A program made the position numbers and the translations under genes. A model generated the notes under the pieces. It was given only the letters and a program-made list of their open reading frames with translations, ran no database searches and was not told where the DNA came from. This document shows, piece by piece, positions 10,301 through 52,966 of a DNA stretch of 64,000 nt. The first letter of the stretch is position 1. The number at the start of each line of letters is the position of its first letter. The stretch comes from Streptosporangium sp. NBC_01495 (GTDB lineage: Bacteria; Actinomycetota; Actinomycetes; Streptosporangiales; Streptosporangiaceae): positions 3,410,001 through 3,474,000 of the forward strand of contig NZ_CP109430.1 of NCBI RefSeq assembly GCF_036250735.1, in the 5' to 3' direction.

Positions 10301-10852
10301 GAGCAGCTCCTGGACGCTGCCGGGGTGGACGATCGGCATGCCCAGCGTGGCGAGTGTGCCCTCGGTCGCCGAGGGGAGGGTGGAGGACTTGCAGGTCGGG
10401 TCGTCGCCGCAGAGCGCGATCAGGCCGCCCTCGGGGTGGGCGCCGACGAAGTTGCCGTGCCGGAACGCGTCGGCCGCGCGGTCGACGCCGGGCGCCTTGC
10501 CGTACCAGACGCCCAGCACGCCGGAGGTGCGCGGGCGGGGGAGCGCGGGCACGAGCTGGCTGCCCCAGACGGCGGTGGCGCCGAGTTCCTCGTTCTGCCC
10601 GGGGCGGTGCACCACGCCGAGCGGCTCGGTGTGGTGGCGCGAGCGGGCCAGCTCCTGGTCGAAGCCGCCCAGCGGGGAGCCGGGGTAACCGGACACCATC
10701 GTGCCGGTGCGAAGGCCCGCGACCCTGTCGGCGCGCATCTGGTCGATGATCACCCGCACCAGGGCCTGGGTGCCGGTCATGAAGACCTGGCCCTCGTCGA
10801 GCAGGTAGCGGTCGTCGGGGGAGATCTCACGGGCGTCTGCGAAGATCGTCAT
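7364..10852 (-). CDS. Indolepyruvate ferredoxin oxidoreductase, fused two-subunit form
   Basis: About 1162 residues from ATG 10852 (MTIFADAREI). It combines the alpha and beta/gamma parts of 2-ketoacid:ferredoxin oxidoreductases in one chain: a pyrimidine-type TPP half with TMVSGYPGSPLGG near residue 50, a TPP-binding half with CSGCPHN near 434, cysteine-rich Fe-S segments (CEGCGDC near 637 and CNKDYSCVEGDC near 670), then a gamma-type domain beginning RLVGIGGTGVV near 720. These enzymes oxidatively decarboxylate aryl- or branched-chain 2-oxoacids to acyl-CoA and reduce ferredoxin. Length and order match the fused bacterial form. An Lrp/AsnC gene diverges from it, as expected for amino-acid catabolism. 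No strong ribosome site lies upstream of the chosen start. Confidence 0.92.
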   Translation of the reverse strand: MTIFADAREISPDDRYLLDEGQVFMTGTQALVRVIIDQMRADRVAGLRTGTMVSGYPGSPLGGFDQELARSRHHTEPLGVVHRPGQNEELGATAVWGSQLVPALPRPRTSGVLGVWYGKAPGVDRAADAFRHGNFVGAHPEGGLIALCGDDPTCKSSTLPSATEGTLATLGMPIVHPGSVQELLDLGRHAIAASRASGLWVAVKAVSNVVDGTGTVNVGHGRVVPVMPDVEYEGRPYRHVPDATLLTPWSLEMERTLVGPRLDLARAYARENGLNRVTADPRDAWLGIVASGTAYYDVREGFRKLGVTPEEAGIRLLKIGMLWPLDPEIVRTFARGLSEILVVEEKAPLLETSVKDILYGTADAPRVLGKLDENGERLIPRHGAVDADLAAKAIAFRLRRRGLTGLGEQVAKGLSIISRPAPLTLLTPKRTPFFCSGCPHNRSTAVPDGAPVGAGIGCHTMVVLNREGKGTLTGLTQMGGEGAQWIGQAPFTDTPHIFQNLGDGTFHHSGSLAVRAAVGAGVNITYKLLYNSAVAMTGGQTITPALSVPDLTRWLETEGVRRIVVTTDEPERYRGVRLAGIAEVRDRTALEDAQRELAAIPGVTVLIHDQQCAAEKRRLRKKGDLPDPARRVVINQRVCEGCGDCGQKSECLSVLPVETEFGRKTEIHQSSCNKDYSCVEGDCPSFLTVLPARGKAASKRRAPVPAPPDMPLPEARTGETSIRLVGIGGTGVVSVAQILGTAAMLDGRRSRGLDQTGLAQKGGTVVSDILIFDGDGDRSARGGAASVDAYLALDLIGATDPAHLAAADRDRTVAVVSTSLVPTGSMVLDPSTHLTDVGSPIGALESRTRRELNVYLDAEEMAQALFGDHMPANTIIVGAAWQRGLIPLGLESIERAIRAGGGRAAERTVAAFHWGRAVVAAPEAVAAATRPAVPAAPLPAPEAVRLVGTVAEPGTELHRILTVRVPDLAAYQNARYAARYADAVRAVLAREREVSPGTSAVTEAYARQLHRLMAYKDEYEVARLHLDPAERARIAAEFGPGARVSYNLHPPFLRALGMRRKLRLGAWFDPAFRLLYGMRVLRGTRLDPFGLGGVRGTERELAAEYTRDVHRALDHLRPETGERVRELAELPEAIRGYEHVKLRNVAAYRERVAALLDGLREG

Positions 10853-10962
10853 GGTTCTGTCCCGTCGTCGGCGCTCCTGCGATGCCGCAAGGTTATGCCA
10901 GGTAGAACAAAATTCGATGTCAATCTTTCCAAGGATGAAGCGCCTCGTTAGCATCCGATGTC
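10853..10962. promoter_or_regulatory. Divergent oxidoreductase/Lrp promoter region
   Basis: The 110-bp gap is AT-richer than its flanks and contains a repeated octamer CGATGTCA (10915-10922 and 10956-10963, the second reaching the Lrp start). Lrp-type regulators usually bind degenerate repeated sites in such gaps; binding here is inference. Confidence 0.45.
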
Positions 10963-11415
10963 ATGGATGTGACAGATCGCGCAATTCTCGGTCTCCTGCA
11001 GGTGGAGGGGCGGTTGAGCAACCTGGAGCTGGCCGAGCGGGTGCGGCTGACCCCCTCGCCGTGCCTGCGCCGGGTCCGCAACCTGGAGGAGGCCGGAGTG
11101 ATCACCGGCTACCGCGCCGTGATCGACCCGGCGGCCGTGGGGCGGGGCTTCCAGGTCGTCGCCTACGTCGAGCTTGAGGGACAGGACGCCGAGACGGTCA
11201 CCGCCTTCGAGGCAGCCGTCATGGAGATCGACGACGTGGTGGAGTGCCTGCGCATGTTCGGCCGCCCCGACTACGTGCTGCGGGTGGCGGTGCCCGACAT
11301 GGACGCCTACAGCCAGCTCTGCCTGGAGAAGCTCGGTCGCCTGCCCGGTCTCGACAAGCTCACCTCCCAGATCGCGATGAAAGCCCTCAAACCCGGCGGC
11401 ATCCTGCCCCTGTGA
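10963..11415 (+). CDS. Lrp/AsnC-family transcriptional regulator
   Basis: 150 residues, the normal family length. N-terminal winged HTH (SNLELAERVRLTPSPCLRRV) and C-terminal RAM/ACT-like ligand domain (VVAYVELEGQDAETVTAFE through GRPDYVLRVAVPD). Lrp/AsnC proteins assemble into octamers and respond to amino acids. Divergence from the indolepyruvate oxidoreductase makes it the likely local regulator of aryl/branched 2-oxoacid oxidation. The ATG at 10963 is set by the start of the HTH domain; no good Shine-Dalgarno is visible. Confidence 0.92.
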   Translation: MDVTDRAILGLLQVEGRLSNLELAERVRLTPSPCLRRVRNLEEAGVITGYRAVIDPAAVGRGFQVVAYVELEGQDAETVTAFEAAVMEIDDVVECLRMFGRPDYVLRVAVPDMDAYSQLCLEKLGRLPGLDKLTSQIAMKALKPGGILPL

Positions 11416-11452
11416 ACCGGCGCCTCCGCTCCCGATGGTAGGCGCGGGCGCC

Positions 11453-11650
11453 TCAGGGGCGGCTGCCCTCCAGGCCGGCGACGATGAGGTCGACGGCGAC
11501 GACGATGAGGTCGACGGCGACCTCGAAGGTGCTGTCGGCGTCCAGCGCTTCGCCGGGCTCGGTGAGGGCCCCGCGGGTCTCGGCGGAGAGGAACCCGGAA
11601 ACGAAGGTGTACAGCGCCACGCGGGTGCCGTTGGAATCCCCCGCCTTCAA
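11453..11650 (-). pseudogene. C-terminal remnant of a TetR-family regulator
   Basis: The minus strand encodes about 60 residues resembling only the end of a TetR ligand domain: ALYTFVSGFLSAETRGAL followed by an E-rich patch and FEVAVDLIV...AGLEG, close to the usual FEFGLDLILDGLE ending. The N-terminal HTH and most of the core are missing; upstream lies the end of the PucR gene. A perfect 21-bp tandem duplication (11480-11521) doubles VAVDLIV in the last helix. I read it as a decayed fragment rather than a small gene; no ribosome site precedes its in-frame start. Confidence 0.65.
11480..11521. repeat. Perfect 21-bp tandem duplication
   Basis: Bases 11480-11500 and 11501-11521 are identical (GACGATGAGGTCGACGGCGAC is 21 bases; its core GATGAGGTCGACGGC appears twice). 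The length is a multiple of three, so the TetR-remnant frame is preserved while seven residues are duplicated. Confidence 0.95.
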
Positions 11651-39127: not shown

Positions 39128-40435
39128 TCAAGCCTCCTGCGGGGTCTCCCTCCGGTCGGCCGTGCCCGTGGCCCTGGCGTTGAGAACCACCAGCGCCAGC
39201 AGGACGAGCAGCCCGGCGAACGTCAGGGCCAGGCCCACGAACTCGGCGAACCAGCCGACCAGAACGGGGCCCAGCAGCAGCCCCGAGTAGGTCAGCGTGG
39301 TGAACCTGGCCAGCGCCGCGGCGGCGCCGAGGCCCTCCGCGCCGCCGTGCCCCACCGCGCTGAAGATGAGGGGCAGCAGGACCGAGAGGCCCACTCCCAC
39401 CACCGCGAAGCCGGCGACCGCGACGACGATACCCGGGCTGAGCACGACCATCGCCAGGCCGCACAGGGCGATGCCGCCGCTCACCCTGACCAGGGCGGGC
39501 GCGCCGTACCGCTCGTGCAGGCGGTCTCCGACGAGGCGGCCGGCGGTCTGGCACAGGTTGAAGAACGTGTAGCCCAGCGAGGCCACGGCGAGGGTGGCAC
39601 CGCGATCCTCCAGGAGGAAGACACCGCTCCAGTTGCCGACCGCGCCCTCGACGATCAGGATGACCGCGCCCATCGCACCGAACATCAGCACCCGCGGGGT
39701 CCACCCGTCCCGCCACTTCACGCGGACCTTCTTCTCACCCTCCCGGCTCGGGTGCCGGTCGGCCGAGGCCGGCAGCATCCACAGCCCGGTGACCAGCGCG
39801 AGGAGGGCCACGGCCACGCCCAGCCACAAAAAGTGCGTCATGGGGGAGAGACCGGCCTGGATGGCGAGGCCGCCCAGCACGGAGGCGGCCATCGCGCCGA
39901 TGCTCCAGGCGGCGTGGCAGCGGTTCATCACGGGCCGTTTGTGGGCGCGCTCGACCGCGATGGCGTGGGCGTTCATGGAGACGTCGAGAAGCCCGTCGAT
40001 CAGACCGAAGACCACCAGCGCGACGGCGAGCTGGATCGGATCACCGGCCAGCGCGAGGCCGACCAGGGACAGCGGCAGCGCCACCCCGGTCACCCGGGCG
40101 ATCGGCGCGCTGCCGTACCGGGCCACCAGGCCGCCGGCGAGTTGCATGGCGATCAGCGCCGAGACGGAGGGGACGACGAGCAGGAGACCGAGCTGCCCGG
40201 CGGAGAGCTCGTGCTCCACCTTCAGCGAGGGGACCCTGATCAGGAAGCTGGCGTACGAGAGCCCCACGATCAGGAACGCGGACATCGCGGCCAGGCGGGT
40301 CCGGCCCGCGGCCCGCGACATCACCGCACCGGGAGGCGTCCCGGACGGCTCGTCCGCGGGGGAGTCCACGCCGGGCGTCTCCTCCGGGGGGCGTCCCCCC
40401 GACGCGGGCTCGGTGGTGTTCTCAGGCGCCGTCAT
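39128..40435 (-). CDS. MFS transporter (exporter-like), last gene of the leftward cluster operon
   Basis: 435 residues with about 12 membrane helices after a disordered acidic N-terminus of about 40 residues. The fold resembles FucP/YbjJ-type MFS proteins: LIVGLSYASFLIRVPSLKVE near the first helix, GLLLVVPSVSALIAMQLAGG, and DVSMNAHAIAVERAHKRPVM in the loop after helix 4. The start overlaps the PhyH stop by 14 bases, so translation is coupled. As final gene of a biosynthetic-looking operon it may export the product; direction and cargo are inference. Confidence 0.88.
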   Translation of the reverse strand: MTAPENTTEPASGGRPPEETPGVDSPADEPSGTPPGAVMSRAAGRTRLAAMSAFLIVGLSYASFLIRVPSLKVEHELSAGQLGLLLVVPSVSALIAMQLAGGLVARYGSAPIARVTGVALPLSLVGLALAGDPIQLAVALVVFGLIDGLLDVSMNAHAIAVERAHKRPVMNRCHAAWSIGAMAASVLGGLAIQAGLSPMTHFLWLGVAVALLALVTGLWMLPASADRHPSREGEKKVRVKWRDGWTPRVLMFGAMGAVILIVEGAVGNWSGVFLLEDRGATLAVASLGYTFFNLCQTAGRLVGDRLHERYGAPALVRVSGGIALCGLAMVVLSPGIVVAVAGFAVVGVGLSVLLPLIFSAVGHGGAEGLGAAAALARFTTLTYSGLLLGPVLVGWFAEFVGLALTFAGLLVLLALVVLNARATGTADRRETPQEA

Positions 40436-41291
40436 CGCCGGCCCACTCTCTCATCCACCGGGGGTCGATCCTGTCCTCCGCGCGGATGAACCGCACGTCG
40501 GCGGAGACACGCATGACGTCGGTCACGGTGTCGAGGGAGGCGTGCACCACGTGCGGGCTGTGCACGGTCAGGTCACCCGCCTCGTAGTCGTTCCACAGCC
40601 AGCGCCGGCCGACGACGCGGGCCGTCAGCTGGAGGTCGTGGCTGATCGGCCGGGAGTCGTGGGCCCGGTCGGTCGTGAGCCGCGCCGCGTCGAACCGTTC
40701 GGGGGACTCCCGGTGCGAGCCCTCCAGATAGACCAGGCCGCCGGTCTCCATCGGGCAGTCGCCGACGGGTATCCACATCGTCAGGACGCGGTCGCTGCCC
40801 TGGGACATGTAGGCGTGGTCGGTGTGGGCGCGGGAGGCCCGGAGCGAGCCCGCGTAGAAGTGGCGCAGGATGCCCCGGGGCAGGATCCGGACAGGACCGC
40901 CGAGCAGGGTCGCGGCCAGCTCCGTCAGGGCCGGTTGCCGGGCGAACGAGGTGAACCGCTCCGTACGCACGAAGTCGTAGGCCGGGTGGTCCTTCACCCC
41001 GTGCGAGGGCAGCCCCTCCGGCGGACGACCGGAGAAGACCCCCTCCTCGGGGGTGGAACCAGGCTTGAGCAGGCCTTCGGGAAACGCCGACAGGTACGCG
41101 CCGCGCAGCGAGAGGACCGTTTCGCGGTCGAGGAACCCCCGCAGCAGCACCAGCCCGTCGTCGTGGAACCGCCGTCTGAGCGCCTCGGGATCGCCGAGCA
41201 GCGCGCCGCTGTCGGGAAGCGGGGCGAACAGGTCGTCGGTGAACGGGATGGGCACGCCGTTGGAGGAGACGGCTCGCCGGTCTCCGGGCAT
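40422..41291 (-). CDS. Phytanoyl-CoA dioxygenase (PhyH) family oxygenase
   Basis: About 289 residues from ATG 41291 (MPGDRRAVSS), overlapping the stop of the adenylating enzyme gene. The iron ligands are visible as H-x-D in RAHTDHAYM and a distal His in HSPHVVHASLD; VSADVRF supplies the Arg that usually binds 2-oxoglutarate. The N-terminus has RRRFHDDGLVLLRGFLDRETV. PhyH enzymes hydroxylate fatty-acyl, amino-acid or natural-product substrates. Within this operon it probably tailors the molecule handled by the LuxC/LuxE/aminotransferase enzymes. Confidence 0.9.
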   Translation of the reverse strand: MPGDRRAVSSNGVPIPFTDDLFAPLPDSGALLGDPEALRRRFHDDGLVLLRGFLDRETVLSLRGAYLSAFPEGLLKPGSTPEEGVFSGRPPEGLPSHGVKDHPAYDFVRTERFTSFARQPALTELAATLLGGPVRILPRGILRHFYAGSLRASRAHTDHAYMSQGSDRVLTMWIPVGDCPMETGGLVYLEGSHRESPERFDAARLTTDRAHDSRPISHDLQLTARVVGRRWLWNDYEAGDLTVHSPHVVHASLDTVTDVMRVSADVRFIRAEDRIDPRWMREWAGDDGA

Positions 41292-42373
41292 CAGTAGACC
41301 CCCTCGGTGATCTGGTCGGTGTCCTCCGCCTCGTAGGGCCCCACCCGCGCCACCCCGGGCCACGGGAACCAGGGGTGCGGCGGGGCGGAGACCGCGCTGT
41401 CCCGCTCCAGGAGGTTGGGCAGGAAGAGGTCCTCCAGGAGGGTCACCACCCTGATCCGGCCCCGCTCGCCCTCGGCGACCTCCCGCCACACGTCATCGGG
41501 CCGGACGACGTGCATCACCGCGAAGGGCGGCGGCAGATGGTAGCTGTGCGGCCCGGCGGGGGAGGGGGCGTCACCCTGGAGGGCGTGTCCGGCGAGGGTG
41601 TTGCCGTAGGTGTCGATCCACTGGACCCCGTCCAGATACTCCTCGCGGAGATAGCGCGCCTCCTCGGGGGAGCAGGAGGTGCCACCGGTGCACACCGCGC
41701 GGACGCCGTACTCCGCGAGGGGCTTGTCCAGCGCGGGGGCGAGCGACATGAGCAGCCTGGCGGTCGTGAAGAGCAGGCTGACCCGCTCGTCCCGCAGGAT
41801 GTCCGCCGTCTGCGCGACGAGGTGGTCGACGTAGGCGTCGGCACCGGAGGCACCGCCCGCGCCCGCGTTGGGGGCGCGCAGCAGGTGCTTGACCCAGCGC
41901 GGGTCGAAGTCCACGGAGAAGACGGCCGCCCCCCAGCTGTCGCCGAGCAGCTTGACGAAGTGCCCGTAGGCGTGCGGGCCGCTGGGCGTCATGGCCAGGA
42001 CGTCGCCGCCGAGCAGGCCGCGGGCCTCCAGCATGACGCGGTACATCCGCACGTCGTAGATGGCGCGGGTCACGTCGACGACCCGGTACGGCGCTCCGGA
42101 CGTCCCGCCGGTCTCCACGACGCGGAACGGCCGCCCGGCGAAGCCCCGGGGCACGAGGTCGCGCGCGCTCACCCCCCGCAGGTCGGTCTTGTCGAACAGG
42201 CCGAACAGGCGCAGGGAGGCGTAGTCGGTGACGTCGCGGATCGGGTCGAAGGGCAGGCGGCTCCTGCGCGCCAGCCAGAACGGTGAGCCGCTCTCCTCGC
42301 CGAAGTGCCAGCTCATCATGCGTACCGTCCACTCGTCGAGGGATTCGCGCATGGGGGGGATCTGCTCTCGCAT
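41291..42373 (-). CDS. LuxE/PaaK-like adenylate-forming enzyme
   Basis: 360 residues, shorter than phenylacetate-CoA ligases and close to LuxE acyl-protein synthetases. The ANL phosphate loop is VVETGGTSGAPYRV (about 83-96); a second motif AVCTGGTSCSPEEARYL and WIDTYGNTLAGHA match the adenine-binding region. The C-terminal lid domain is short. It would activate a carboxylic acid as acyl-AMP and pass the acyl group on. Its neighbour is a LuxC-like reductase, the same partnership as in fatty-aldehyde synthesis by luminous bacteria. The stop overlaps the PhyH start. Confidence 0.82.
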   Translation of the reverse strand: MREQIPPMRESLDEWTVRMMSWHFGEESGSPFWLARRSRLPFDPIRDVTDYASLRLFGLFDKTDLRGVSARDLVPRGFAGRPFRVVETGGTSGAPYRVVDVTRAIYDVRMYRVMLEARGLLGGDVLAMTPSGPHAYGHFVKLLGDSWGAAVFSVDFDPRWVKHLLRAPNAGAGGASGADAYVDHLVAQTADILRDERVSLLFTTARLLMSLAPALDKPLAEYGVRAVCTGGTSCSPEEARYLREEYLDGVQWIDTYGNTLAGHALQGDAPSPAGPHSYHLPPPFAVMHVVRPDDVWREVAEGERGRIRVVTLLEDLFLPNLLERDSAVSAPPHPWFPWPGVARVGPYEAEDTDQITEGVY

Positions 42374-42417: not shown

Positions 42418-43611
42418 TCAGGACGACGCTCCTTCAGGGACGGTCGCGAAGCAGGCCGGGTGCACGAAGCGGGACCCGGCGGCGACGCCGCGCGCTCCCG
42501 CCTCGTCCGTGGAGACGACGACGGCGAGGGGGAAGGGCAGCTCGCAGCCGACGAGGGGGTGGCCGACGTCGTCGACGTGGACGAGGGTGGGCGCCAGGAA
42601 CGTCATCCCGCCCGACCTGACCACGAGCGGCCGCCGGGTGAGCACGCGCCCGCCGGGAGCGAGCCGGTCGGAGACGAACGCGGCCATCCGCGCGGCGTCG
42701 GCCTCGGCCCACGACGCCTGCGGCCGGCGCGGGTCCGGCGGGTCGAGGGAGATGCCGTCGAGCACCGCCGCGACCTCCCGGGCGTCGGCCTCGGCCGCCC
42801 GCAGGCAGACCACCGTGGACGTGCTGGTGCAGAAGCGGCCCGCGTCCCGCGCGATCCTGTCGGCGAGGTCCTCGGGGTCCACCGGCTCCCGCGCGCCCAC
42901 GATCACGCAGGCCCGGCCGGGCCCGCGCAGGTCGAGGGACGGTGTGTCCAGGGCCGGTTCGGCGGCGAGGCCGTCGCCGCCGTAGACGATCTGCCGGTCG
43001 GTCGCCCGGATCATCGCGGGCAGGGTCTTGGGCGCGCTCGGGTAGTAGCCCAGCGTCTCGGGCGGCCAGCCCACGCTCAGCAGGGCCCCGACCAGGCGGG
43101 CCGACGACAGCGGCTCGCGCCTGCTGGGGCGGATCCAGACCGCCGCGCCGGACAGCGCCGCCTCCAGCACCCCCTCCAGGCAGGTGAAGGTGTTGGCGGG
43201 CAGGGAGACCAGGGTGAGACCGCCGGTGTCGTGCTCGTCCGCGTGCTCGTCCGCCGCGAGCTCCTCCAGCCGCTCGCCGAGCATCGCCGACCAGCGCCGC
43301 ACGAGGGCGGGGGGAAGGCCGGCCGTGGCGCGCATCGCCTCCTCGAACCCCCCGGCGTCCTGGACGCCCAGGGCCTCGACGGGTACGCGGCCGTGCCGGA
43401 ACAGCGCGACGGCCTCGCGGAGCAGCTCCAGGCGCCGGGCGCGCGGCGGCACGGTCGTCGCGGCACGGCGTGCCCGCAGGCGCGCGCCGTCGTCGCGGAC
43501 GAGGATCTCCGGGGCCAGGGAGAGCAGCGGGCCTCCGGGGACGGGCACGGTGTCCATCGACCGGTACCACCGTCCCGCGCGCAGTAAGGGCAGGACCGTC
43601 TCGCCGGTCAC
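42418..43611 (-). CDS. LuxC-like acyl reductase (ALDH superfamily)
   Basis: About 397 residues from GTG 43611, overlapping the fusion-gene stop (GTGA). It has the layout of the LuxC acyl-CoA/acyl-protein reductase family: SLPANTFTCLEGVLEAALSG with VWIRPSRREPLSSARLV for the nicotinamide-nucleotide site, and a candidate catalytic Cys261 in GRFCTSTST. Such enzymes reduce activated acyl groups to aldehydes with NADPH. Lying between the LuxE-like gene and a PLP aminotransferase, it would make an aldehyde suited to transamination. The ORF continues upstream in frame through neighbouring genes only by chance. Confidence 0.82.
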   Translation of the reverse strand: MTGETVLPLLRAGRWYRSMDTVPVPGGPLLSLAPEILVRDDGARLRARRAATTVPPRARRLELLREAVALFRHGRVPVEALGVQDAGGFEEAMRATAGLPPALVRRWSAMLGERLEELAADEHADEHDTGGLTLVSLPANTFTCLEGVLEAALSGAAVWIRPSRREPLSSARLVGALLSVGWPPETLGYYPSAPKTLPAMIRATDRQIVYGGDGLAAEPALDTPSLDLRGPGRACVIVGAREPVDPEDLADRIARDAGRFCTSTSTVVCLRAAEADAREVAAVLDGISLDPPDPRRPQASWAEADAARMAAFVSDRLAPGGRVLTRRPLVVRSGGMTFLAPTLVHVDDVGHPLVGCELPFPLAVVVSTDEAGARGVAAGSRFVHPACFATVPEGASS

Positions 43612-45689
43612 GACAGCGCGTCCCGCAGCGCGCGGACGACCCGCTCCTGCTGGGCGCCCGTCATGCCGGGGAAGAGCGGCAGGCAGATGTGGCGGGAGGT
43701 GAACGCCTCGGCGTGCGGGAAGGACCGCTCCCCGAAGCGCCGGGCGAAGTAGGGCTGGCGATGGAGCGGGACGTCGTACACCTCGCCCGCCAGCCGTACC
43801 CCCTCGGCGCGCAGCCTCTGTTTGAGTGCCGCGCGGTCGACGCCCTCCGGGAGCAGGGCGAGGTATTTGTAGTGGTTCGTCGCGCACCCCGCCGGCACGG
43901 CGGGACGGGTCAGGGAGGGCACGCCGGCCAGGCCGTCGTCGTACCGGGCGGCCAGCGCCGTGCGCTCGGCCAGCACCTCCGCCAGCCGGGCCAGATGGGT
44001 CAGGCCCACCGCCGCGTGCAGCTCGCTCATGCGCCAGTTGCTGCCGAGGTCGTCGTGGAGGTTCTCCTCGAAGGACCGCTTGCCGTGGTCGCGCAGATGC
44101 GTGATCCGCTTCAGGTCGGCCCCGTCCGCGCTGAGCAGGCCGCCCTCGCCACTGGTGATGATCTTGGTGGGGTAGAGGGAGAAGGCGGCCAGCCGGCCGA
44201 AGGTGCCCGCCTGGCGCCCGTGCAGCGAGGAGCCGAGGGCGTGGGCGGCGTCCTCGACGACGGCGACGCCCTGCCTGTCGCACTCGGCCAGCACCTCGGC
44301 CAGCGAGTCGGCGACGACCCCGGCGATGTGCACGGGCACGACCGCGGCCACGTCCTCGTGGGCGGCCAGGGCGGCGCGCAGCCCCGCGGGGTCCATGCCG
44401 AGACCGTCCGGCTCCATGTCGACGAAGTCGACCCGGGCACCGGCGCGGACGGCGCTGGCCGCGGTCGCGAAGAAGGTGTTGGCCGGGACCAGGACGGTGC
44501 GCCCCTCGACCCCGACGATCCGCAGGGCGATCTCCAGGGCCGAGGAGCCCGAGCTCACCGCCGCGGTGCCGCGCCCGATCTCCCGGCTCGCGAGCGCCTC
44601 CAGCCGGGCGCCGCGCGGTCCGAGGGTCAGCGACCCGGTGGCCAGGGCGTCGTCGACCAGGTCCAGGATGTCCAGGCGGGCCCGGACGTCGAAACCCACC
44701 CTGGCCGCGGGCACGTCCGACGCACCGATGGCGGGCTCGGCCAGGGAGCGGGTGAAGAAGTCGGCCGCCTCGGCCAGGCCGGTGCCGTGGCCCATGGGCA
44801 GCGGCAGGATCTCGGCCGTGTCGTGGGCGCTCACGATCCGCTCGCCGGCGGTCTTGGCGTCGCCGGGATCGAGGCGTCCGTCGGCCGTGCCGTACTGGAT
44901 CTGCAGGGGAGCCGGGGCCAGCGCCGCGTACAGGTCGGGGAGGTCGGCGTGGCGGAGGATGGACGGCAGGGCGACGTACTGGTTCCAGGCCAGCGACCGG
45001 CCGATCATCGTCTCGTACGTGCCCAGGTGGCTGGCGGCGCACAGCGGGAGCGGCTCCTCCCACAGCAGCGCGGCGTGCAGCGCCACCGCCGCGCCCATGC
45101 TGTGCCCGAACAGGCCGACCCGTCCGGGGGCCACGTCCGGATGCGCGCGGAGCCAGTCGAGCGCGGCTCCCGCGTCCTCCGCCATCGCGCCGAGGAGACT
45201 CCCGCCGCGCAGCCGCAACGTGCCGTCCAGCACGTCGCCCGGGTCGCGTCCGCCCAGCGTGGCGGGCTCGGCCCACCGGTCGAGGCCGTGATCGAGGGTG
45301 AGCGTGAGGAATCCGGCCCCGGTCAGGTGGGCGGCGACGTCGCGGCCGGGGTGGTCGGGGGGCAGGAGCCCGGTGACCCGTTCCAGGGTCGCGTTGCGTC
45401 CCGCGCAGACCAGTACGGCGGGCCACGGCCCCGGGCCCGGCGGGGTCAGCATGACCGCGCGCAGCTCGCGACGCCCTTCGTGCTCGAAGAGGTAGTGGTC
45501 CACCCGCGGCTCCGCGCCCTCCTGCCTGCGGGTGGAGCGCACGCGAAGGGAGACCCGCCGGGTGGCGGCCAGCCGGGCCACCGCTCTGCGCACCTGGCCG
45601 TTGCGGACGGCCTGGTCCGGCGCGGGAGAGCCGGGGACGGGATCGACCGGGGAGTGGCCGAGATGGTGGAACCGGTCGATCGACGTCAA
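43608..45689 (-). CDS. Alpha/beta-hydrolase fused to a DegT/DnrJ/EryC1-type aminotransferase
   Basis: 693 residues in one uninterrupted frame. Residues about 60-320 are an alpha/beta hydrolase: nucleophile elbow GHSMG (195-199, Ser197), Asp270 or Asp274 in YGTADGRLD, and His301 in MGHGT, a full triad. Residues about 335-690 are a DegT-family PLP enzyme: SSGSSALEIAL, VPANTFFATA, VVEDAAHALGSS (Asp480 for the pyridine nitrogen, His483), and SLYPTKIITSGEGG with Lys509 for PLP. Both catalytic sets look intact, so this is a bifunctional enzyme. I know of no characterised protein with this pairing. The short ALA-rich join near 320-335 shows no sign of frameshift. Confidence 0.9.
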   Translation of the reverse strand: MTSIDRFHHLGHSPVDPVPGSPAPDQAVRNGQVRRAVARLAATRRVSLRVRSTRRQEGAEPRVDHYLFEHEGRRELRAVMLTPPGPGPWPAVLVCAGRNATLERVTGLLPPDHPGRDVAAHLTGAGFLTLTLDHGLDRWAEPATLGGRDPGDVLDGTLRLRGGSLLGAMAEDAGAALDWLRAHPDVAPGRVGLFGHSMGAAVALHAALLWEEPLPLCAASHLGTYETMIGRSLAWNQYVALPSILRHADLPDLYAALAPAPLQIQYGTADGRLDPGDAKTAGERIVSAHDTAEILPLPMGHGTGLAEAADFFTRSLAEPAIGASDVPAARVGFDVRARLDILDLVDDALATGSLTLGPRGARLEALASREIGRGTAAVSSGSSALEIALRIVGVEGRTVLVPANTFFATAASAVRAGARVDFVDMEPDGLGMDPAGLRAALAAHEDVAAVVPVHIAGVVADSLAEVLAECDRQGVAVVEDAAHALGSSLHGRQAGTFGRLAAFSLYPTKIITSGEGGLLSADGADLKRITHLRDHGKRSFEENLHDDLGSNWRMSELHAAVGLTHLARLAEVLAERTALAARYDDGLAGVPSLTRPAVPAGCATNHYKYLALLPEGVDRAALKQRLRAEGVRLAGEVYDVPLHRQPYFARRFGERSFPHAEAFTSRHICLPLFPGMTGAQQERVVRALRDALS

Positions 45690-45704: not shown

Positions 45705-46898
45705 TCAGACGAAGTCGGCGTGGAGCGCCTGCGGAACCTCGACGCGGTACGTGTTGAGCGCGTCGTCCAGCTTGATCCGCCCCTTGCGCAGCCATTCGAG
45801 CAGCTCGTTCTGCGGCCGGTAGAAGCAGGATTTGCACAGGTCGGTCCTGAGCGGATTGCTCGCCTCCCACTCGGCCCTGGGACCGCCCTCCAGGACGGAG
45901 AGGTAGCCGTCCTCGAGCACGTTGCCGATACGATAGCGACTGTTCAGGTGCACCTGGGGGCAGGGGTAGAGATGACCGTCCGCGCCGACGGCCGTGACGA
46001 AACGGCTGTAGTGGCAGTGGTCGAAGTCGCCCTCGACGGACTCCACCTGGTCCATCGGCCCCCGGTCGAGCTTGGGCACGGAGACCTCGAACTCCTCCGA
46101 CGACAGCGCGGAGACGTCGTCGAGCGAGGCGGAGACCTCCGCCATGACCTGCTCGATCGTCTCGTGACCCATCGAGCTGTAGAACTCCGGCTCGAACCGG
46201 ACGTAGTGGGCCCCCGAGTCGCGCGCTATCCGGGCGGCCTGCGAGATCTCCCGGTAGTTCTGCATGGTGATCACGAAGTTGAACCCGATACGGAACTCCG
46301 GATCGACGGCGTTGTCGCGCAACCTGCGGACGGAGCCGAGGAAGGACTTGAACGTCTGCTCGCGGTCCCGGGTGATGTCGTTGAAGGTCGCCTCGGTGCC
46401 CGCGTTGAGGCCGATGCGCACCCAGGTGTGGGTGTTGACCACGCAGTCGGCGATGTCGTCCCGATGCAGGCGGGAGCCGTTGGTGATCAGGCCGATGCGC
46501 AGCCCGGCCGCGTGCCCGGAATTGCAGATCTCCGTGTAGCCGCGATGAATCGTGCATTCCCCGCTGCCGCAGAACGTGACTGCCCGGCCGCCGGATTCGG
46601 CGAACTCCCGCATGAGCTTGACGCTCTTGTCGGTGGGAATGGCGTCCTTGAAGGAGAAGAGATCATAGAAATTCTCCTCGTTCGGCGAGTGAAAGTTGCA
46701 GAAATTGCAGCGCATATTGCAGGCGCCCATGATGCCGATGCGCATATGGACGGGCCGGAAGCTCTCCCCGTTGACGAACTTCCTGAGCAGGTCCTCGTGG
46801 GCCAGGACCTTGTCGGGGGCGTGTGCCTGGTCAAGAGTGACCTCCGCCAGACCGTCGCCGTTGGTGGGTCTCGCCGACCTGTAGCTCTCGTCCGACAT
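45705..46898 (-). CDS. Radical SAM protein with a SPASM-like C-terminal domain
   Basis: About 397 residues from ATG 46898 (MSDESYRS), with GGGGG at 8 bases upstream; an in-frame ATG at 46955 lacks a site. The 4Fe-4S/SAM motif C60-NMR-C64-NF-C67 is perfect and is followed by CGSGECTIHRGY and LITNGSRL strands of the TIM-barrel. Extra cysteines (DHCHYS near 293, YPCPQ near 313, CKSC near 354-357) fit a SPASM/twitch auxiliary cluster. Such enzymes modify peptides, sugars or amines by radical chemistry. No precursor peptide gene was found nearby, so a small-molecule or sugar substrate is more likely. First gene of the leftward operon. Confidence 0.92.
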   Translation of the reverse strand: MSDESYRSARPTNGDGLAEVTLDQAHAPDKVLAHEDLLRKFVNGESFRPVHMRIGIMGACNMRCNFCNFHSPNEENFYDLFSFKDAIPTDKSVKLMREFAESGGRAVTFCGSGECTIHRGYTEICNSGHAAGLRIGLITNGSRLHRDDIADCVVNTHTWVRIGLNAGTEATFNDITRDREQTFKSFLGSVRRLRDNAVDPEFRIGFNFVITMQNYREISQAARIARDSGAHYVRFEPEFYSSMGHETIEQVMAEVSASLDDVSALSSEEFEVSVPKLDRGPMDQVESVEGDFDHCHYSRFVTAVGADGHLYPCPQVHLNSRYRIGNVLEDGYLSVLEGGPRAEWEASNPLRTDLCKSCFYRPQNELLEWLRKGRIKLDDALNTYRVEVPQALHADFV

Positions 46899-47175: not shown

Positions 47176-48396
47176 ATGACAGAAACCCCAATAGCGTCAC
47201 CCCAAATGCCGGACTCCTTACCGGACACACGGACGCTCGGGTCCAGGCTGGCCGCCTACGCCTTCCTCGCCAACGATCCGTCGGTTCCCATGGTGGCCGC
47301 CGACTGGTGGGAGATCAGCGGCCCGCACTACAACGCGGTGGCCGGCGCCCTCGCCCACTTCGTGGCCGGGGAGCCCGCCGCGGAGGACCTGCGCCGTTTC
47401 GCAGCCTCCCCCGGGGACCGTGAGCTGGAGACCGCCCTGGCCGGCGCGCTCGTCCCCCTGCTGGAGCGTTCACCCGCCGACCGCGCGCGCTTCGCGGAGC
47501 TGATCGCCGCGGCCGACGCGCACGTGCTGGTGGACTACCACAACGGCCCGCTGGCCGACCGCTCCGCCGCCGAGGTGTCGGTGGCCGACGTCTCCGCCTG
47601 GACGCGGCCGAGAACGCCGCAGACACGACCGGCGGGAACGCGGGCCGTGATCGTGATCCCCTTCCGGGACCGTGTCGGCGGCGCCCGTACCCGCAACCTG
47701 CTGGCCTGCCTGGCCGCCCTGCGAGACCAGGACGGTCACGGCGGCGAGGTGAGCGTCACCGTGGTCGAGTCCGACTCGGCGCCCACCTGGCGCGACACCG
47801 TCGAACCGCTGGTGGACCACTACGTGTTCGCGCGGCACGACGGGCGTTTCAACAAGTCCTGGGCGGTCAACGTCGGGGTTCGCGCCACCCCGGGCGAGCC
47901 CGGGGTGATCTGCGTGCTGGACACCGACATCCTGGTGGACCGCCGGTTCCTGAGCCGGAACCTGGACCGGATGGCGCGCGAGCCCGAGCTCTCGGCCTTC
48001 CTGCCCTACCGCCGCATGTTCTGCCTCGACCCCGAGTCCTCCACCGCCGCCATCCGCCGCCGCTGCGAGCGGGACGAGGCCGACGTGCCGCTCGACGCCG
48101 TGCGCTCGCTGGTGCTGAAGGAGCCGCCCGGGGCCTGCCTCTGGGCCAGAACCACGACCTTCGACGCGATCGGCGGGTTCGACGAGCGGTACCAGGGCTG
48201 GGGCGGCGAGGACGACGACGTCGTGGCGCGGCTGAGCCTGGCCGGGCGGTTCACCCGGTTCGACGACCCGCTGCTGCACCTGGCCCACCCGCGTCCGGAG
48301 ATGACCCTGGACGGGGTGCCGTTCAACGCCCACATCGACCCGCTGAGCTGGACCGTCGCCGGTGGGTACGGCGACCTGCGAGGTCCCAGGGGATGA
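47176..48396 (+). CDS. GT-A glycosyltransferase (galactosyltransferase-type C-terminal domain)
   Basis: About 406 residues from ATG 47176, preceded by GGAGGG; ATG-like starts further up lack a site. Residues 1-150 form an unrecognised helical N-terminal domain. The GT-A fold then begins AVIVIPFRDRVGGARTRNLL, with metal-binding DTD (249-251) in ICVLDTDILVD and the acceptor/catalytic motif GWGGEDDDVV (341-350). It would transfer a sugar from a nucleotide-sugar donor. It starts the rightward operon, and its stop overlaps the next gene (ATGA). Confidence 0.88.
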   Translation: MTETPIASPQMPDSLPDTRTLGSRLAAYAFLANDPSVPMVAADWWEISGPHYNAVAGALAHFVAGEPAAEDLRRFAASPGDRELETALAGALVPLLERSPADRARFAELIAAADAHVLVDYHNGPLADRSAAEVSVADVSAWTRPRTPQTRPAGTRAVIVIPFRDRVGGARTRNLLACLAALRDQDGHGGEVSVTVVESDSAPTWRDTVEPLVDHYVFARHDGRFNKSWAVNVGVRATPGEPGVICVLDTDILVDRRFLSRNLDRMAREPELSAFLPYRRMFCLDPESSTAAIRRRCERDEADVPLDAVRSLVLKEPPGACLWARTTTFDAIGGFDERYQGWGGEDDDVVARLSLAGRFTRFDDPLLHLAHPRPEMTLDGVPFNAHIDPLSWTVAGGYGDLRGPRG

Positions 48397-50372
48397 CCTT
48401 GGCCGTTCGCGCCTACGCGGCGCGCACGTCGGTGCCGCAGGGCGGATCGTTACGCTTCCGCCTGGCGACCGATGACCTGATGACCGATCCGACCGATCCG
48501 ACCGATGACCCGGCCGCCGGCGACCCGGTGGCCGACGGCGAGCGCGGGGCGGTCGGCTGCCGCGCCCGGGTGCGCGACGCCGTGACCGGCGAGGTCAGGG
48601 CCGAGCTGGACGCCTCCGGGCCCTGGTGGACCCTGGACGTCCCCGGCGGCTGGCCCAGCTCGCTCTACGCCGTGGCGTTCACTTCCGACATTCCCGGCAC
48701 CCCCGACGGCCCGGACAGCCCGGACGGCCCGGACGAGGAGACCTACTTCGTCGTCAGGCCCCGCGAACCGCGGACCGGCGGGGCGATCCTGGTGTCGGTG
48801 CCCTTCCTCACCTGGCAGGCGTACAACGGGGCTGGAGTGCCCGGGGAGGGCCTGTATCCCACCGAGAGCCCCGAACGGGCCGGCCGGGTCACCTTCGACC
48901 GCCCCGGCGGCGGACCGGCGGGCAACTGGGAGGACCACTTCTACCGGTGGCTGAGCCGCAGCGGTATCCGGGCCGACTACTGCTCCAACCTGGACCTGCA
49001 CGAGGATCCGGACACGCTGCTGCGCGACCGCCGCCTGCTCGTGATCCCCGGGCACGACGAGTACTGGACCCGGCGGATGCGTGACGCCGCGGAGTCCTTC
49101 GTGGCGGCCGGGGGGAACATCGCCTTCTTCGGCGGCAACACGTGCTGGTGGCAGGTCCGGCTGGAGGACGACGGCCGGACCATGGTGTGCCACCGCGACG
49201 CCCTGCTCGACCCGATGGCCGCGATCGATCCGAGCCTGGTCACCGTGGAGTGGTCGGGATCCCCGGTCTGCCGGCCGGAGAACAGCCTGACCGGCGTGAG
49301 CTTCCGGCGCGGCGCGGGCTGCTGGGAGGACATGGACGCCATGAAGTCCGAGGCGTACACGGTGCGCTTCGCCGAGCACTGGGTGTTCGAGGGCACGGGG
49401 CTGCGCGACGGCGACACGTTCGGCAGGGGCGCGGTCGGCTACGAGACCGACGCCGCGGAGTACGCGGAGGTCGACGGCGTCCCGCTGGCCACCGGCGCCG
49501 ACGGCACACCCGCCGACTTCGCCATCCTGGCCACCGCCGACCTGCGCCACTGGCGGCACCTGGGCCAGGGCGGCCACGCCACCATGGGCATCATGCGCCG
49601 CGGGGCGGGCACCGTCTTCAACGCGGCCACGATCGGCTGGGGTGACGCCCTCGACGACCCGGTCGTCGACCGCGTCACCCGCAACGTGCTCGCCAGGCTC
49701 GCCGGCGCACCCGGCTGGTGGGAGCCGATGGGCGGTGGAGCGGCCGCGCTCGCGCTCGCCGCCTGCGAGCGACAGCTCTTCGCCGCCGGTGCCGACGGCG
49801 ATCTCTGGGTGCGGCCGTACCGCACCCAGAACCTGAGGTGGCGGCGGATCGAGCCCGCGCCGGGCCTGGTGGCGCTGACCGCGCCGCGCGAGGCGACGCC
49901 CGGCTCACCCGTTCTCCTGTACGGCCTGCACGCCGACGGGCGCGTCGTCGCCCGCGAGCCGGTGACCGGGCGGGCGCCCTGGAGGGACCTGTACGACGCC
50001 CCGCCGGGGGCGGTCGGGATCGCCCCCGTCGACCAGACCATGTTCGCCGCCGGTGCCGACGGCGAGCTGTGGTGGCGCCCGCTCGCCGCCGGACGGTCCG
50101 GGCCGTGGACCCGCGCGGGCGACGCCGGGCCGGCGCTCGTCGCGCTCGCCCACGTGGGGGGACGGCTGATCGGGCTGACCCGCGACGGGGAACTGCGGGT
50201 CAGGACGCCGGGCGGCGACGGATGGACCCCCTGGGGCGCCACCCCGGGGCTGGTCACGCTGACCGGCACCGCGGGCAGGCTCGTCGGCGCCACGCCGGGC
50301 GGCGACCTGTTCTGGCGCGAACTGGTCCACGGCGGGACCACGGGACATCCGCAGACCGGAAACGAGGAGTGA
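48393..50372 (+). CDS. N,N-dimethylformamidase beta-subunit-like protein with C-terminal lectin-like repeats
   Basis: 659 residues. The N-terminal domain (1-95) is beta-sandwich-like. The central part (about 105-440) matches the DMFase large-subunit family: VSVPFLTWQAYNGAGVPGEG, GNWEDHFYRWLSRSG, LLVIPGHDEYWTRRMRDA and AAGGNIAFFGGNTCWWQVR. The C-terminal 215 residues carry about four repeats of the tectonin/PLL type (ERQLFAAGADGDLWVRPY, DQTMFAAGADGELWWRPL, TRDGELRVRTPGGDGW). A signal peptide is not evident. The family hydrolyses formamides, but most members are untested. Coupled to the glycosyltransferase, so a sugar-linked amide substrate is conceivable. Confidence 0.85.
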   Translation: MTLAVRAYAARTSVPQGGSLRFRLATDDLMTDPTDPTDDPAAGDPVADGERGAVGCRARVRDAVTGEVRAELDASGPWWTLDVPGGWPSSLYAVAFTSDIPGTPDGPDSPDGPDEETYFVVRPREPRTGGAILVSVPFLTWQAYNGAGVPGEGLYPTESPERAGRVTFDRPGGGPAGNWEDHFYRWLSRSGIRADYCSNLDLHEDPDTLLRDRRLLVIPGHDEYWTRRMRDAAESFVAAGGNIAFFGGNTCWWQVRLEDDGRTMVCHRDALLDPMAAIDPSLVTVEWSGSPVCRPENSLTGVSFRRGAGCWEDMDAMKSEAYTVRFAEHWVFEGTGLRDGDTFGRGAVGYETDAAEYAEVDGVPLATGADGTPADFAILATADLRHWRHLGQGGHATMGIMRRGAGTVFNAATIGWGDALDDPVVDRVTRNVLARLAGAPGWWEPMGGGAAALALAACERQLFAAGADGDLWVRPYRTQNLRWRRIEPAPGLVALTAPREATPGSPVLLYGLHADGRVVAREPVTGRAPWRDLYDAPPGAVGIAPVDQTMFAAGADGELWWRPLAAGRSGPWTRAGDAGPALVALAHVGGRLIGLTRDGELRVRTPGGDGWTPWGATPGLVTLTGTAGRLVGATPGGDLFWRELVHGGTTGHPQTGNEE

Positions 50373-50373
50373 C

Positions 50374-51384
50374 GTGCGCCGGATCGAACTCGTCGGCCGA
50401 CACCGCATCCGGCTGGACGGCGACGCGCCGATCCCGCCCATCGGACCGGGCGACGTGCTCGTCCGGGTGGGGGCCTGCACCGTCTGCAACCGCAGCGACC
50501 TGGCCTACTATCACTACTTCGGCCTGCGCGACCACTGTGCGACCGGCTGCTTCGGCCACGAGGTCGCCGGCACCGTCGAGGCGGTGGGAGAGCGGGTGAC
50601 CCGCGTCGCGCCGGGGCGGCGGGTGTTCGTCCGCACCCCGCTCACCTCGGGGTTCGCCGAGTACGCGGCGGCGAGGGAGGTCAGCGTGGGCGTCCTCCCC
50701 GACGACGTGCCCTTCGAGCAGGGCGCGATCCTGCAACTGCTGCCCCTGGCCGTGCACGCGACCCGGGGGGTGCGGCTCGGCGACCGGGTGGCCATCCTGG
50801 GGCAGGGGCCGGTCGGGCTGATGGCCCTGCAGGTCGCACGGCTGCGTGGCGCGGCCGAGATCGCCGTCGCCGACCTGGACCCCTGGCGTCTGGAGCGCGC
50901 GACGCTCCTCGGCGCGGACCGGACCTCGCTGGTGAAGTCGCCGCAGGCCGTACCGGAGGAGCTGGGGACGGAGTTCGACGTCGCCATCGAGGCGGTCGGC
51001 ACCCCGCACACCGCCAACGCCTGCGTCGACCTGGTCCGGCAGAACGGTCTCGTCGTCTTCCTCGGCACCCACCACATCGACACCCACGTCACCTTCGACA
51101 TGGTCAAGTGGGAGAAGAAGGGGCTGCGGGTGCACAGCTCCGCCGAACCGACCGACACCGCGAGGGCCGAGGCGATGCGGGTGGCCGAGCGGCTGGCCGC
51201 CACCTTCACCGGGCGCCTGCGCCTCGACGCGATCCTCACCGCCGTCTACCCGCTGGAACGGCTCCAGGACGCCCTCGACCGGCTTTCCGAGAGCCCCACC
51301 CTGCACCCGGCCGGAAGCGCCGCGCCGTTCCAGACCCCGCCCCCGGAAACCCTGAAGATCGCTATACGTCCGGACCTGGAGTGA
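50374..51384 (+). CDS. MDR-family dehydrogenase (zinc alcohol/sorbitol dehydrogenase-like)
   Basis: 336 residues from GTG 50374, one base after the previous stop. GroES-like domain with catalytic-zinc residues C38 (CTVCNRSD) and H62-E63 (GCFGHEVAG), then a Rossmann domain with GQGPVGLMALQVA. The four-cysteine structural zinc lobe of classical members is absent (the segment runs GRRVFVRTPLTSGFAEYA). It would oxidise or reduce a polyol or sugar with NAD(P). Next to an Idh/MocA oxidoreductase it suggests sugar or cyclitol modification in the rightward operon. Confidence 0.88.
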   Translation: MRRIELVGRHRIRLDGDAPIPPIGPGDVLVRVGACTVCNRSDLAYYHYFGLRDHCATGCFGHEVAGTVEAVGERVTRVAPGRRVFVRTPLTSGFAEYAAAREVSVGVLPDDVPFEQGAILQLLPLAVHATRGVRLGDRVAILGQGPVGLMALQVARLRGAAEIAVADLDPWRLERATLLGADRTSLVKSPQAVPEELGTEFDVAIEAVGTPHTANACVDLVRQNGLVVFLGTHHIDTHVTFDMVKWEKKGLRVHSSAEPTDTARAEAMRVAERLAATFTGRLRLDAILTAVYPLERLQDALDRLSESPTLHPAGSAAPFQTPPPETLKIAIRPDLE

Positions 51385-52373
51385 AATGGGGGATCGCCGG
51401 ATACGGCGACATCGTCCGTAGGAAGGCCCTGCCCGCCCTGCTCTCCCTGGGGGAGACCGTCGCCTGCGTGTGGGGCAGGGACGCCGCGCGGGCCCGGACG
51501 ACCTGCGAGGAGTTCGGGGGTTTCCCCGGCGCCTTCGGCACGTCCGACTACACCGATCTGCTCGACGTGGCCGAGGTCGTCTACGTCGCCACGCCGGTCG
51601 CGGCCCATCTGCCCCTCGCGGTCGCGGCGGCGCGGGCGGGCCTGCCGGTCCTGGTGGAGAAGCCGCTCGGCGGGACGGCGCCCGAGCCGGCCACCGCCCA
51701 CGCGGGAGGCGCCCGCCACCGCGAGACGGTTTCCGAGCTGGCCGCCGCCCACGTGGGCGTCGCCTACTACCGCAGGCTCGCGCCCGCGCTCGGGCGGGTG
51801 CGCGAGATCCTGCGCGGGCGTGCCGTGCACCACGCGGTCGTGGAGTTCCGGAGCCACTTCGACCCGGGGCCGGACGACCCCAGGCTCTGGCGTACCGACC
51901 CCGCGATCTCCGGCGGGGGAGTGCTCGCCGACGTGGGCAGTCACCGCCTCGACCTGCTCTGCTGGCTGCTGGGGGAGCCGGTCGTGACCGGCGCGCGGAC
52001 GGGCCTGCCCTTCGACCTGGGCGGGGAGCGCCTCGCCCGGGTGGGGCTGGCCTGGCCGTCGGGAGGCGTGGCCGACCTGGAGGCGGCGTGGGTGCCCGGC
52101 GCCCGCCACGACCGGTTTCACCTGTCCTTCGACGGCGGCCACCTGGAGCTCGACCCCCTCGACTCGGGGACCGTGCGCGGGATCGTCGACGGGGTCGCCG
52201 TCGACGAGTTCCTTCCCCCGCCGGAGAACCCGCATCTCCCCCTCATGGCCGACTTCGCCCGTAGCGTCAGGGACGGGACCGACCCGGTCTGCACCGTCCG
52301 CGACGCCGACACCGTCGACCGTCTCATCGCGACCGCCTACGCGCTCGCAACCCCTCTGGAGGAACAGCCGTGA
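51381..52373 (+). CDS. Gfo/Idh/MocA-family oxidoreductase
   Basis: About 330 residues from GTG 51381, overlapping the MDR stop (GTGA). Rossmann start KWGIAGYGDIVRRKALPAL (2-20), the family EKP motif (VEKPLGG, 92-98), and the second domain motif GGGVLADVGSHRLDLLCWLLG with the usual catalytic-region His. These enzymes interconvert hydroxyl and keto groups on sugars or inositols with NAD(P). The MDR enzyme before it and the glycosyltransferase upstream suggest sugar tailoring. The stop overlaps the DUF1349 start. Confidence 0.9.
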   Translation: MKWGIAGYGDIVRRKALPALLSLGETVACVWGRDAARARTTCEEFGGFPGAFGTSDYTDLLDVAEVVYVATPVAAHLPLAVAAARAGLPVLVEKPLGGTAPEPATAHAGGARHRETVSELAAAHVGVAYYRRLAPALGRVREILRGRAVHHAVVEFRSHFDPGPDDPRLWRTDPAISGGGVLADVGSHRLDLLCWLLGEPVVTGARTGLPFDLGGERLARVGLAWPSGGVADLEAAWVPGARHDRFHLSFDGGHLELDPLDSGTVRGIVDGVAVDEFLPPPENPHLPLMADFARSVRDGTDPVCTVRDADTVDRLIATAYALATPLEEQP

Positions 52374-52966
52374 ACGAGCCCGTCTCCCTGCCCGCCTTTC
52401 CCACGCCGCTGCGCTGGCTGAACCGGCCCGAGGACTGGAGCGCCGACGGCGACGCGCTCTCCATCAGCGCGGGGGCGGGCACCGACCTCTTCTCCGACCC
52501 CGGGGAGCCGAACCGCTACGCCAACGCCCCCGCTCTCGTCGGCCGCCTGGACGGCGACTTCACCCTCAGCGCGCGGGTCAGGCTCGACCTGCTGTCCACC
52601 TACGACGCGGCCGTCCTGCTGCTGTACGCCGACGACGACCGGTGGGCCAAGTTCTGCCTGGAGCTCTCCCCGCAGGGCAGGCCCACGATCGTCTCGGTGG
52701 TCACCCGCGGGGTGTCCGACGACTGCAACTCCGTGACCATGGACAGCCGGGACATCCGGCTGCGGATCTCCCGCATCGGCTCCGCCTTCGCCTTCCACGT
52801 CGCCGACGAGTCCGGTTTCTGGAACCTCATCAGATACTTCGCGCTCGACGGTGACCCCGAGGTCGGCTTCCTCGCCCAAAGCCCCACCGGCGACGGCTGC
52901 ACCGTGCGCTTCGAGGACATCGAGTACTCGCCCAAGCGCCTGTCCGAACTGCGCGGCGGCGAGTAG
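52370..52966 (+). CDS. DUF1349 family protein (concanavalin A-like fold)
   Basis: 198 residues from GTG 52370, with GGAGGAAC at proper distance. The family core is present: DLFSDPGEPNRYANAPALVG, GDFTLSARVRLDLLSTYDAAVLLLY, WAKFCLELSPQGRPTIVSVVT and a late VGFLAQSPTGDGCTVRFEDI. DUF1349 is a beta-sandwich thought to bind carbohydrate and is found near sugar enzymes; no catalytic role is proven. It ends the rightward operon. A binding or assisting role for the sugar product is inference. Confidence 0.87.
   Translation: MNEPVSLPAFPTPLRWLNRPEDWSADGDALSISAGAGTDLFSDPGEPNRYANAPALVGRLDGDFTLSARVRLDLLSTYDAAVLLLYADDDRWAKFCLELSPQGRPTIVSVVTRGVSDDCNSVTMDSRDIRLRISRIGSAFAFHVADESGFWNLIRYFALDGDPEVGFLAQSPTGDGCTVRFEDIEYSPKRLSELRGGE

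Follow-up and report, generated by a model that had tools for sequence, protein, structure and literature searches.

Genomic Context and Domain Structure of the Fused Gene

In a 64,000-nucleotide stretch of the Streptosporangium sp. NBC_01495 genome (contig NZ_CP109430.1, positions 3,410,001 to 3,474,000; hereafter the window), two divergent operons make up a cluster of 11 genes. The minus-strand operon encodes, in order, a radical S-adenosylmethionine (SAM)/SPASM protein, a fused alpha/beta hydrolase-DegT aminotransferase, a LuxC-like reductase, an EhpF-like enzyme, a PhyH-type oxygenase and a major facilitator superfamily (MFS) transporter, and the divergent operon a glycosyltransferase, a DMFA2_C protein, an alcohol dehydrogenase, a Gfo/Idh oxidoreductase and a DUF1349 protein (Table 1). 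The fused gene, our subject here, is a 693-codon open frame in which an alpha/beta-hydrolase-like half is followed by a DegT-family aminotransferase. That one frame holds both domains had been predicted from the DNA letters alone and is borne out, on the minus strand, which the original prediction left unnamed. A GAGG lies six bases upstream of the TTG start, and a simple gene caller placed a TTG start at the matching position of the Nonomuraea glycinis orthologue. The gene is probably co-translated with its operon.

The C-terminal half matches DegT_DnrJ_EryC1 (PF01041) over residues 341–689 (E 8.7e-86; 288.8 bits against a cut-off of 19.8), and its best PDB match is ArnB (E 2.8e-39). Asp480, His483 and Lys509 are invariant in all ten orthologous sequences; we take Lys509 to be the pyridoxal 5′-phosphate lysine and Asp480 the aspartate that binds the pyridine nitrogen. 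The domain's scores against the NCBIfam transaminase models that it matches all stay under the curated cut-offs, including those for the equivalogs PseC (232.3 of 423.5 bits) and PRK11658 (UDP-4-amino-4-deoxy-L-arabinose aminotransferase; UDP, uridine diphosphate; 154.2 of 631). It resembles the ArnB/PseC-like DegT/DnrJ/EryC1/StrS aminotransferases over the whole domain (289 bits) and keeps both Asp480 and Lys509, but differs from them in being fused behind a hydrolase-like domain and in lying in a cluster where Pfam finds no sugar-nucleotide dehydratase.

The first half of the window protein reaches the curated cut-off of no Pfam alpha/beta hydrolase model, the closest being Peptidase_S15 at 22.9 of 23 bits. 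A profile built from the first halves of all ten orthologues matches acetyl xylan esterases and other alpha/beta hydrolases in the PDB (best E 8.2e-8), with the acetyl xylan esterase match spanning profile positions 47–213 and the serine in place. Ser197 (in a GHSMG/GHSLG elbow of GxSxG form), Asp270 and His301 follow one another in Ser-Asp-His order and are invariant in 10 of 10 orthologues. The catalytic residues proposed earlier for the two halves thus stand with the exception of Asp274, named as an alternative triad acid, which is D in five orthologues, E in four and S in one; because Asp274 varies, Asp270 is the likely acid. Asp277 is also invariant in the ten-sequence alignment.

Enzymes of carbohydrate esterase family 7 (CE7; acetyl xylan esterase/cephalosporin C deacetylase) are marked by RGQ, GxSQGG and His-Glu. 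The hydrolase half resembles CE7 and dienelactone-hydrolase-like folds in the profile match (E 8.2e-8) and the placement of its serine, but alignment to 2xlb and the ten-sequence alignment lack all three marks: HGL and GHSMGA align to RGQ and GxSQGG, and His301 precedes Gly (by eye), not Glu. CE7 membership was therefore rejected. Membership in the LuxD family was rejected as well, as the ten hydrolase halves matched 13 Pfam families at E up to 0.01 and the LuxD thioesterase family is not among them.

Table 1. Positions of the fused gene, its parts and the neighboring cluster genes in the window.
Feature	Position	Strand	Remarks
Fused alpha/beta hydrolase-DegT aminotransferase	43608..45689	-	693 aa, TTG start; nine fused orthologues
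Alpha/beta-hydrolase-like domain, residues about 61-316	44742..45509	-	Ser197 45099-45101, Asp270 44880-44882, His301 44787-44789
Junction, residues 317-340, variable linker of ~10 residues	44670..44741	-	Orthologue alignment
DegT/DnrJ/EryC1/StrS aminotransferase domain, residues 341-689	43623..44669	-	Asp480 44250-44252, Lys509 44163-44165
Radical SAM/SPASM protein, first gene of operon	45705..46898	-	Adjoins fusion in 10/10 loci
LuxC/aldehyde-dehydrogenase-superfamily reductase (EhpG-like)	42418..43611	-	Overlaps fusion by 4 bases
EhpF-like acyl-adenylating enzyme	41291..42373	-	PDB 3hgu E 2.6e-41, 3l2k E 2.5e-41; ETGG(T/S)(S/T)G and TYGNT motifs
PhyH-type oxygenase	40422..41291	-	HxD and distal His kept 10/10
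MFS transporter, last gene of operon	39128..40435	-	Homologues at same place in N. glycinis and G024 loci
Divergent family-2-type glycosyltransferase, Glyco_transf_7C motif	47206..48396	+	Pfam
DMFA2_C (N,N-dimethylformamidase beta-subunit-like) protein	48393..50372	+	
Zinc-type alcohol dehydrogenase	50374..51384	+	Orthologue in 9/10 fusion genomes
Gfo/Idh/MocA oxidoreductase	51381..52373	+	Adjoins alcohol dehydrogenase
DUF1349 protein, last gene of divergent operon	52370..52966	+	

Distribution and Conservation of the Fusion

We found the gene in ten genomes, fused in every one, and saw no unfused orthologue. The nine orthologues, all in other species, are 50–80% identical (hydrolase half 47–77% and DegT half 56–84% identical to the window), and the halves are joined by a short, variable linker of about 10 residues. 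All ten orthologues keep the reading frame across the junction, which excludes a local sequencing error and agrees with the earlier description of a junction free of frameshifts. The pairing therefore extends well beyond one assembly; neither of the findings that were to overturn the original prediction, an error at the junction or homologues encoded as two genes, was encountered. The ten genomes span three families, namely that of the window (Streptosporangiaceae, in the broad sense), that of genome G616 and that of genome G665, the last probably Streptomycetaceae judging from gene content. One orthologue, that of N. glycinis (79% identity), came from a separate contig search; its locus is apparently the same record as G229, whose contig is equally long and whose gene calls are mirrored, and was counted once.

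The genome sets surveyed overlap, and the larger ones are samples. Queried with the hydrolase half, 133 of 341 genomes in the window's family gave a match at E up to 1e-3, of which four were close (59–100% identity, E 1.8e-95 or better) and the next best was at E 2.4e-10. Across the class, 5 of 394 genomes matched at 1e-12, with close matches in the window's genome, G209, G616 and G665; G511 has a weak stand-alone hydrolase (31% identity over 131 residues). The radical-SAM query found 6 of 394 genomes in the family of G665, 1 of 35 in that of G616, 1 of 70 in the genus of G868 and 1 of 198 across the phylum, the last being the window itself. Two records of a plasmid collection matched the fused protein (E up to 1e-40), both by the DegT half only.

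In G1013, an eleventh genome to match the radical-SAM query, the similarity covers only residues 84–397 (56% identity), and no partner genes show in 19.9 kb. This diverged, incomplete match lies at 10789-11631 of its locus (L068), where nearby transport and regulator genes resemble, by their opening residues, those of the G665 locus (L054). It is apparently the remnant of a decayed cassette at the same place as in G665.

In a tree of the ten fused and 18 other DegT domains, to which the sample was confined, the fused domains all fell on one side of a branch with support of 99/99, a grouping consistent with a single origin of the fusion, which is probable. Six stand-alone DegT rows, one of them a long branch, adjoin the fused group (support 86/86), and the five closest stand-alone proteins are 44–48% identical to the window. 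Ratios of nonsynonymous to synonymous substitution (dN/dS; Nei-Gojobori, four orthologue pairs) were 0.28–0.36 for the hydrolase domain and 0.25–0.35 for the DegT domain, from which we conclude that purifying selection holds both; the junction gave 0.30–0.53 and the first 60 residues 0.61–1.02. The ten fused orthologues, the single DegT grouping and selection on both halves rule out frameshift, misassembly or read-through of two genes as the source of the fused frame, leaving such an artefact a negligible likelihood.

Conserved Partner Genes and the Reductase Pair

In nine loci the radical-SAM gene shares 73–87% identity with that of the window, and its protein keeps the motif CNMRCNFC (with the second N replaced by D in one) and four C-terminal cysteines. 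Its nearest solved relatives, BlsE (E 8.7e-8) and SkfB (E 7.7e-6), are too distant for its reaction to be named. All ten loci have PhyH near the fusion, and nine have the EhpF/LuxC-like pair beside it. In those nine loci, and at a separate locus in G616, the EhpF-like gene adjoins the aldehyde-dehydrogenase-like reductase.

Similarity of the EhpF-like protein to EhpF structures is near full length, residues 15–360 aligning with 26–369 of 3hgu (E 2.6e-41). The LuxC-like protein has as its best PDB matches NADP (nicotinamide adenine dinucleotide phosphate)-type glyceraldehyde-3-phosphate dehydrogenases of 501 residues (E 2.6e-6), which we take to be members of the aldehyde dehydrogenase superfamily, and then aldehyde dehydrogenases (E 0.004). 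The cysteine of its GRFC motif is invariant in all nine sequences aligned. Against the LuxC family (PF05893), whose cut-off is 21 bits, the window protein reaches 20.4, and one of two homologues from other contexts reaches 25.9.

The EhpF-like query matched 33 genomes in a sample of 246; the matches in the window's genome and G209 are close and the other 31 more distant (up to 41% identity). A LuxC-like gene adjoins the EhpF-like gene in 10 of the 11 more distant contexts that were opened (L096–L105 among the loci). The two look, from this adjacency, like a working couple, and the recurrence of the pair across many actinomycete contexts makes it possible that they form a general carboxylate-reduction module.

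EhpF and EhpG themselves reportedly perform carboxyl reduction. The window's pair resembles this system, which serves the biosynthesis of the phenazine D-alanylgriseoluteic acid, in that an EhpF-like partner of near full length is paired with an aldehyde-dehydrogenase-superfamily gene; it differs in that the cluster has no phenazine core gene by Pfam and adds the hydrolase-DegT fusion. In a phenazine operon, ehpF, an AMP-binding gene, stands beside ehpG, a gene of the aldehyde dehydrogenase family (PMC11278526). The steps from EhpF to EhpO convert phenazine-1,6-dicarboxylic acid to D-alanylgriseoluteic acid, most likely via griseoluteic acid with its hydroxymethyl group (PMC3175449). This route fits a carboxyl reduction, a step that the passages of the two papers used here assign to neither EhpF nor EhpG (PMC3175449; PMC11278526). 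With the LuxC-LuxD-LuxE fatty acid reductase the likeness is a functional analogy only, a hydrolase, an acyl-activating enzyme and an acyl reductase being encoded together; the window's hydrolase, in contrast, has no LuxD-type family match, its LuxC-like protein falls below the cut-off and its activating enzyme is EhpF-like.

Proposed Pathway and Alternatives

The original prediction suggested that the hydrolase frees an acid or alcohol that the same protein later aminates. A transaminase cannot directly aminate a free acid or alcohol, so a step between release and amination is needed; since a carboxylate must first turn into an aldehyde or ketone, the neighboring EhpF/LuxC-like pair is a candidate for it. 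We tentatively favor, at somewhat less than even confidence, the view that the fusion is a bifunctional enzyme, likely of one origin, in an uncharacterized actinomycete specialized-metabolite cassette that would carry out release, reduction and amination. The N-terminal serine hydrolase would free a carboxylate by cleaving a (thio)ester or acyl group in a pathway intermediate; in this it would take the role that LuxD has beside LuxC and LuxE, though it is no member of the LuxD family. The EhpF-like enzyme would adenylate a carboxylate, the LuxC/EhpG-like enzyme would take the acyl group on its cysteine and reduce it to the aldehyde, and the C-terminal DegT half would transaminate the aldehyde, or a ketone derived from that aldehyde, giving an amine. 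The radical-SAM protein, PhyH and the dehydrogenases may tailor the skeleton, and the MFS protein may export the product. Both the substrate and the order of steps (release, activation, reduction, amination) are inferred. The more specific proposal, that the four activities yield a primary amine from a carboxylate bound as an ester or thioester, with hydrolase and DegT on one chain opening and closing the sequence and perhaps shielding the free aldehyde, appears rather doubtful.

Several observations weigh against this release, reduction and amination route. Since BLAST searches with the fused protein (E up to 1e-3, on our own gene calls) turned up no DegT-like gene within six genes in any of the 11 other EhpF-like contexts opened, amination is not generally coupled to the reductase pair. 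The pair in G616 lies at the end of another contig (L095), where the sequence breaks off within the LuxC-like gene and the EhpF-like match contains one stop. The AlphaFold model of the fusion, for which only the window and N. glycinis proteins were eligible, had a mean predicted local distance difference test (pLDDT) score of 34, too poor for use. Two findings point to sugars: the DegT half has its best scores against sugar-nucleotide transaminases, and at L045, the locus of one of its nearest stand-alone relatives, tested with Pfam and resembled by L044, L046 and L047 in opening residues, epimerase-family and monogalactosyldiacylglycerol (MGDG)-synthase/GT28-like genes stand beside DegT.

These last findings bring in a serious rival, a keto-sugar route to an amino sugar or aminocyclitol, in which Gfo/Idh and the alcohol dehydrogenase would oxidize the hydroxyl of a sugar or cyclitol to a ketone, DegT would aminate it, the hydrolase would deacylate, the glycosyltransferase would use the sugar and the EhpF/LuxC-like pair would act on another part of the product. 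Pairs of Gfo/Idh and DegT enzymes make amino sugars in other systems (WlbA/WlbC, NtdC/NtdA). The DegT half is nearest to PseC/ArnB-type enzymes, the hydrolase profile to acetyl xylan esterase, and Gfo/Idh with alcohol dehydrogenase, which would suit a keto-sugar or cyclitol, occurs in 8 of 10 loci. (In G665 the alcohol dehydrogenase lies about 15 kb further along the same contig.) A glycosyltransferase stands beside the fusion in five of the ten loci. G209 has it on another contig, and in G868 it probably lies about 20 kb off, judging from Pfam family and by eye; in G980 and G882 it was looked for only within their stretches. Flagellin glycosylation islands also contain LuxE-, LuxC- and DegT-type genes (PMC4875605), so that such genes can serve a glycan. 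On the other hand, Pfam finds no sugar-nucleotide dehydratase or epimerase among the window's 11 cluster genes, and G616 (88% complete) has the fusion, radical-SAM and PhyH genes without a match to the alcohol dehydrogenase (at 1e-20) or the glycosyltransferase (at 1e-10). The set common to all ten genomes is the radical-SAM gene, the fusion, PhyH and the reductase pair. We regard the keto-sugar route as doubtful.

It is also conceivable, if quite unlikely, that the hydrolase acts after amination or on another molecule and that being joined serves only to set the ratio of two enzymes whose steps lie apart in one pathway, for example an early amination and the final deacylation of a protected, inactive product. 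The linker is short and variable, there is no sign of channeling, and the overlap with the neighboring gene and probable co-translation are in keeping with such an arrangement. That all ten orthologues, drawn from three families, have kept the fusion nevertheless suggests more than loose co-expression, without proving channeling.

The setting in G868, where non-ribosomal peptide synthetase genes flank the cassette, supports a role in specialized metabolism.

Other Features of the Loci

Three of the ten loci, those of the window, N. glycinis and G024, showed the DMFA2_C and DUF1349 genes. About 240 further C-terminal residues of the window's DMFA2_C protein lie outside the domain match and look repeat-like by eye. 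Near the G868 cassette (L071, 71-6392) are genes for a protein that has an ATP-grasp-type match and matches PGM1_C below the cut-off, for a glycosyltransferase like that of the window, for a PLP (pyridoxal 5′-phosphate) decarboxylase, for a DUF6271 protein and for a second PhyH; a literature search for DUF6271 gave nothing. Several loci in the family of G665 have a glycoside hydrolase family 3 (GH3) gene close to the cassette (L064 1830-3344, Pfam-tested; L065 10303-11904, L054 3184-4668 and L071 8050-9573, by opening residues), which may only reflect a common insertion site. The GH3 genes suggested control by DasR and N-acetylglucosamine, a reading that was rejected: a DasR core, allowing up to 2 mismatches, had three matches in the window against 1.06 expected, none of them in the cluster.

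Implications for Actinomycete Metabolism

Each of the domains is of a known kind. Among the titles listed from the open-access literature, we found no description of the hydrolase-DegT architecture, of the gene set or of these domains combined in a conserved cassette. If the release, reduction and amination reading is true, the cassette would genetically link the steps that convert a carboxylic acid to an amine, a conversion that interests biocatalysis, and would mark a family of specialized-metabolite clusters that can be found by the highly conserved radical-SAM gene. Even if the chemistry differs, the retention of the fusion across three actinomycete families says that its two steps are functionally tied.

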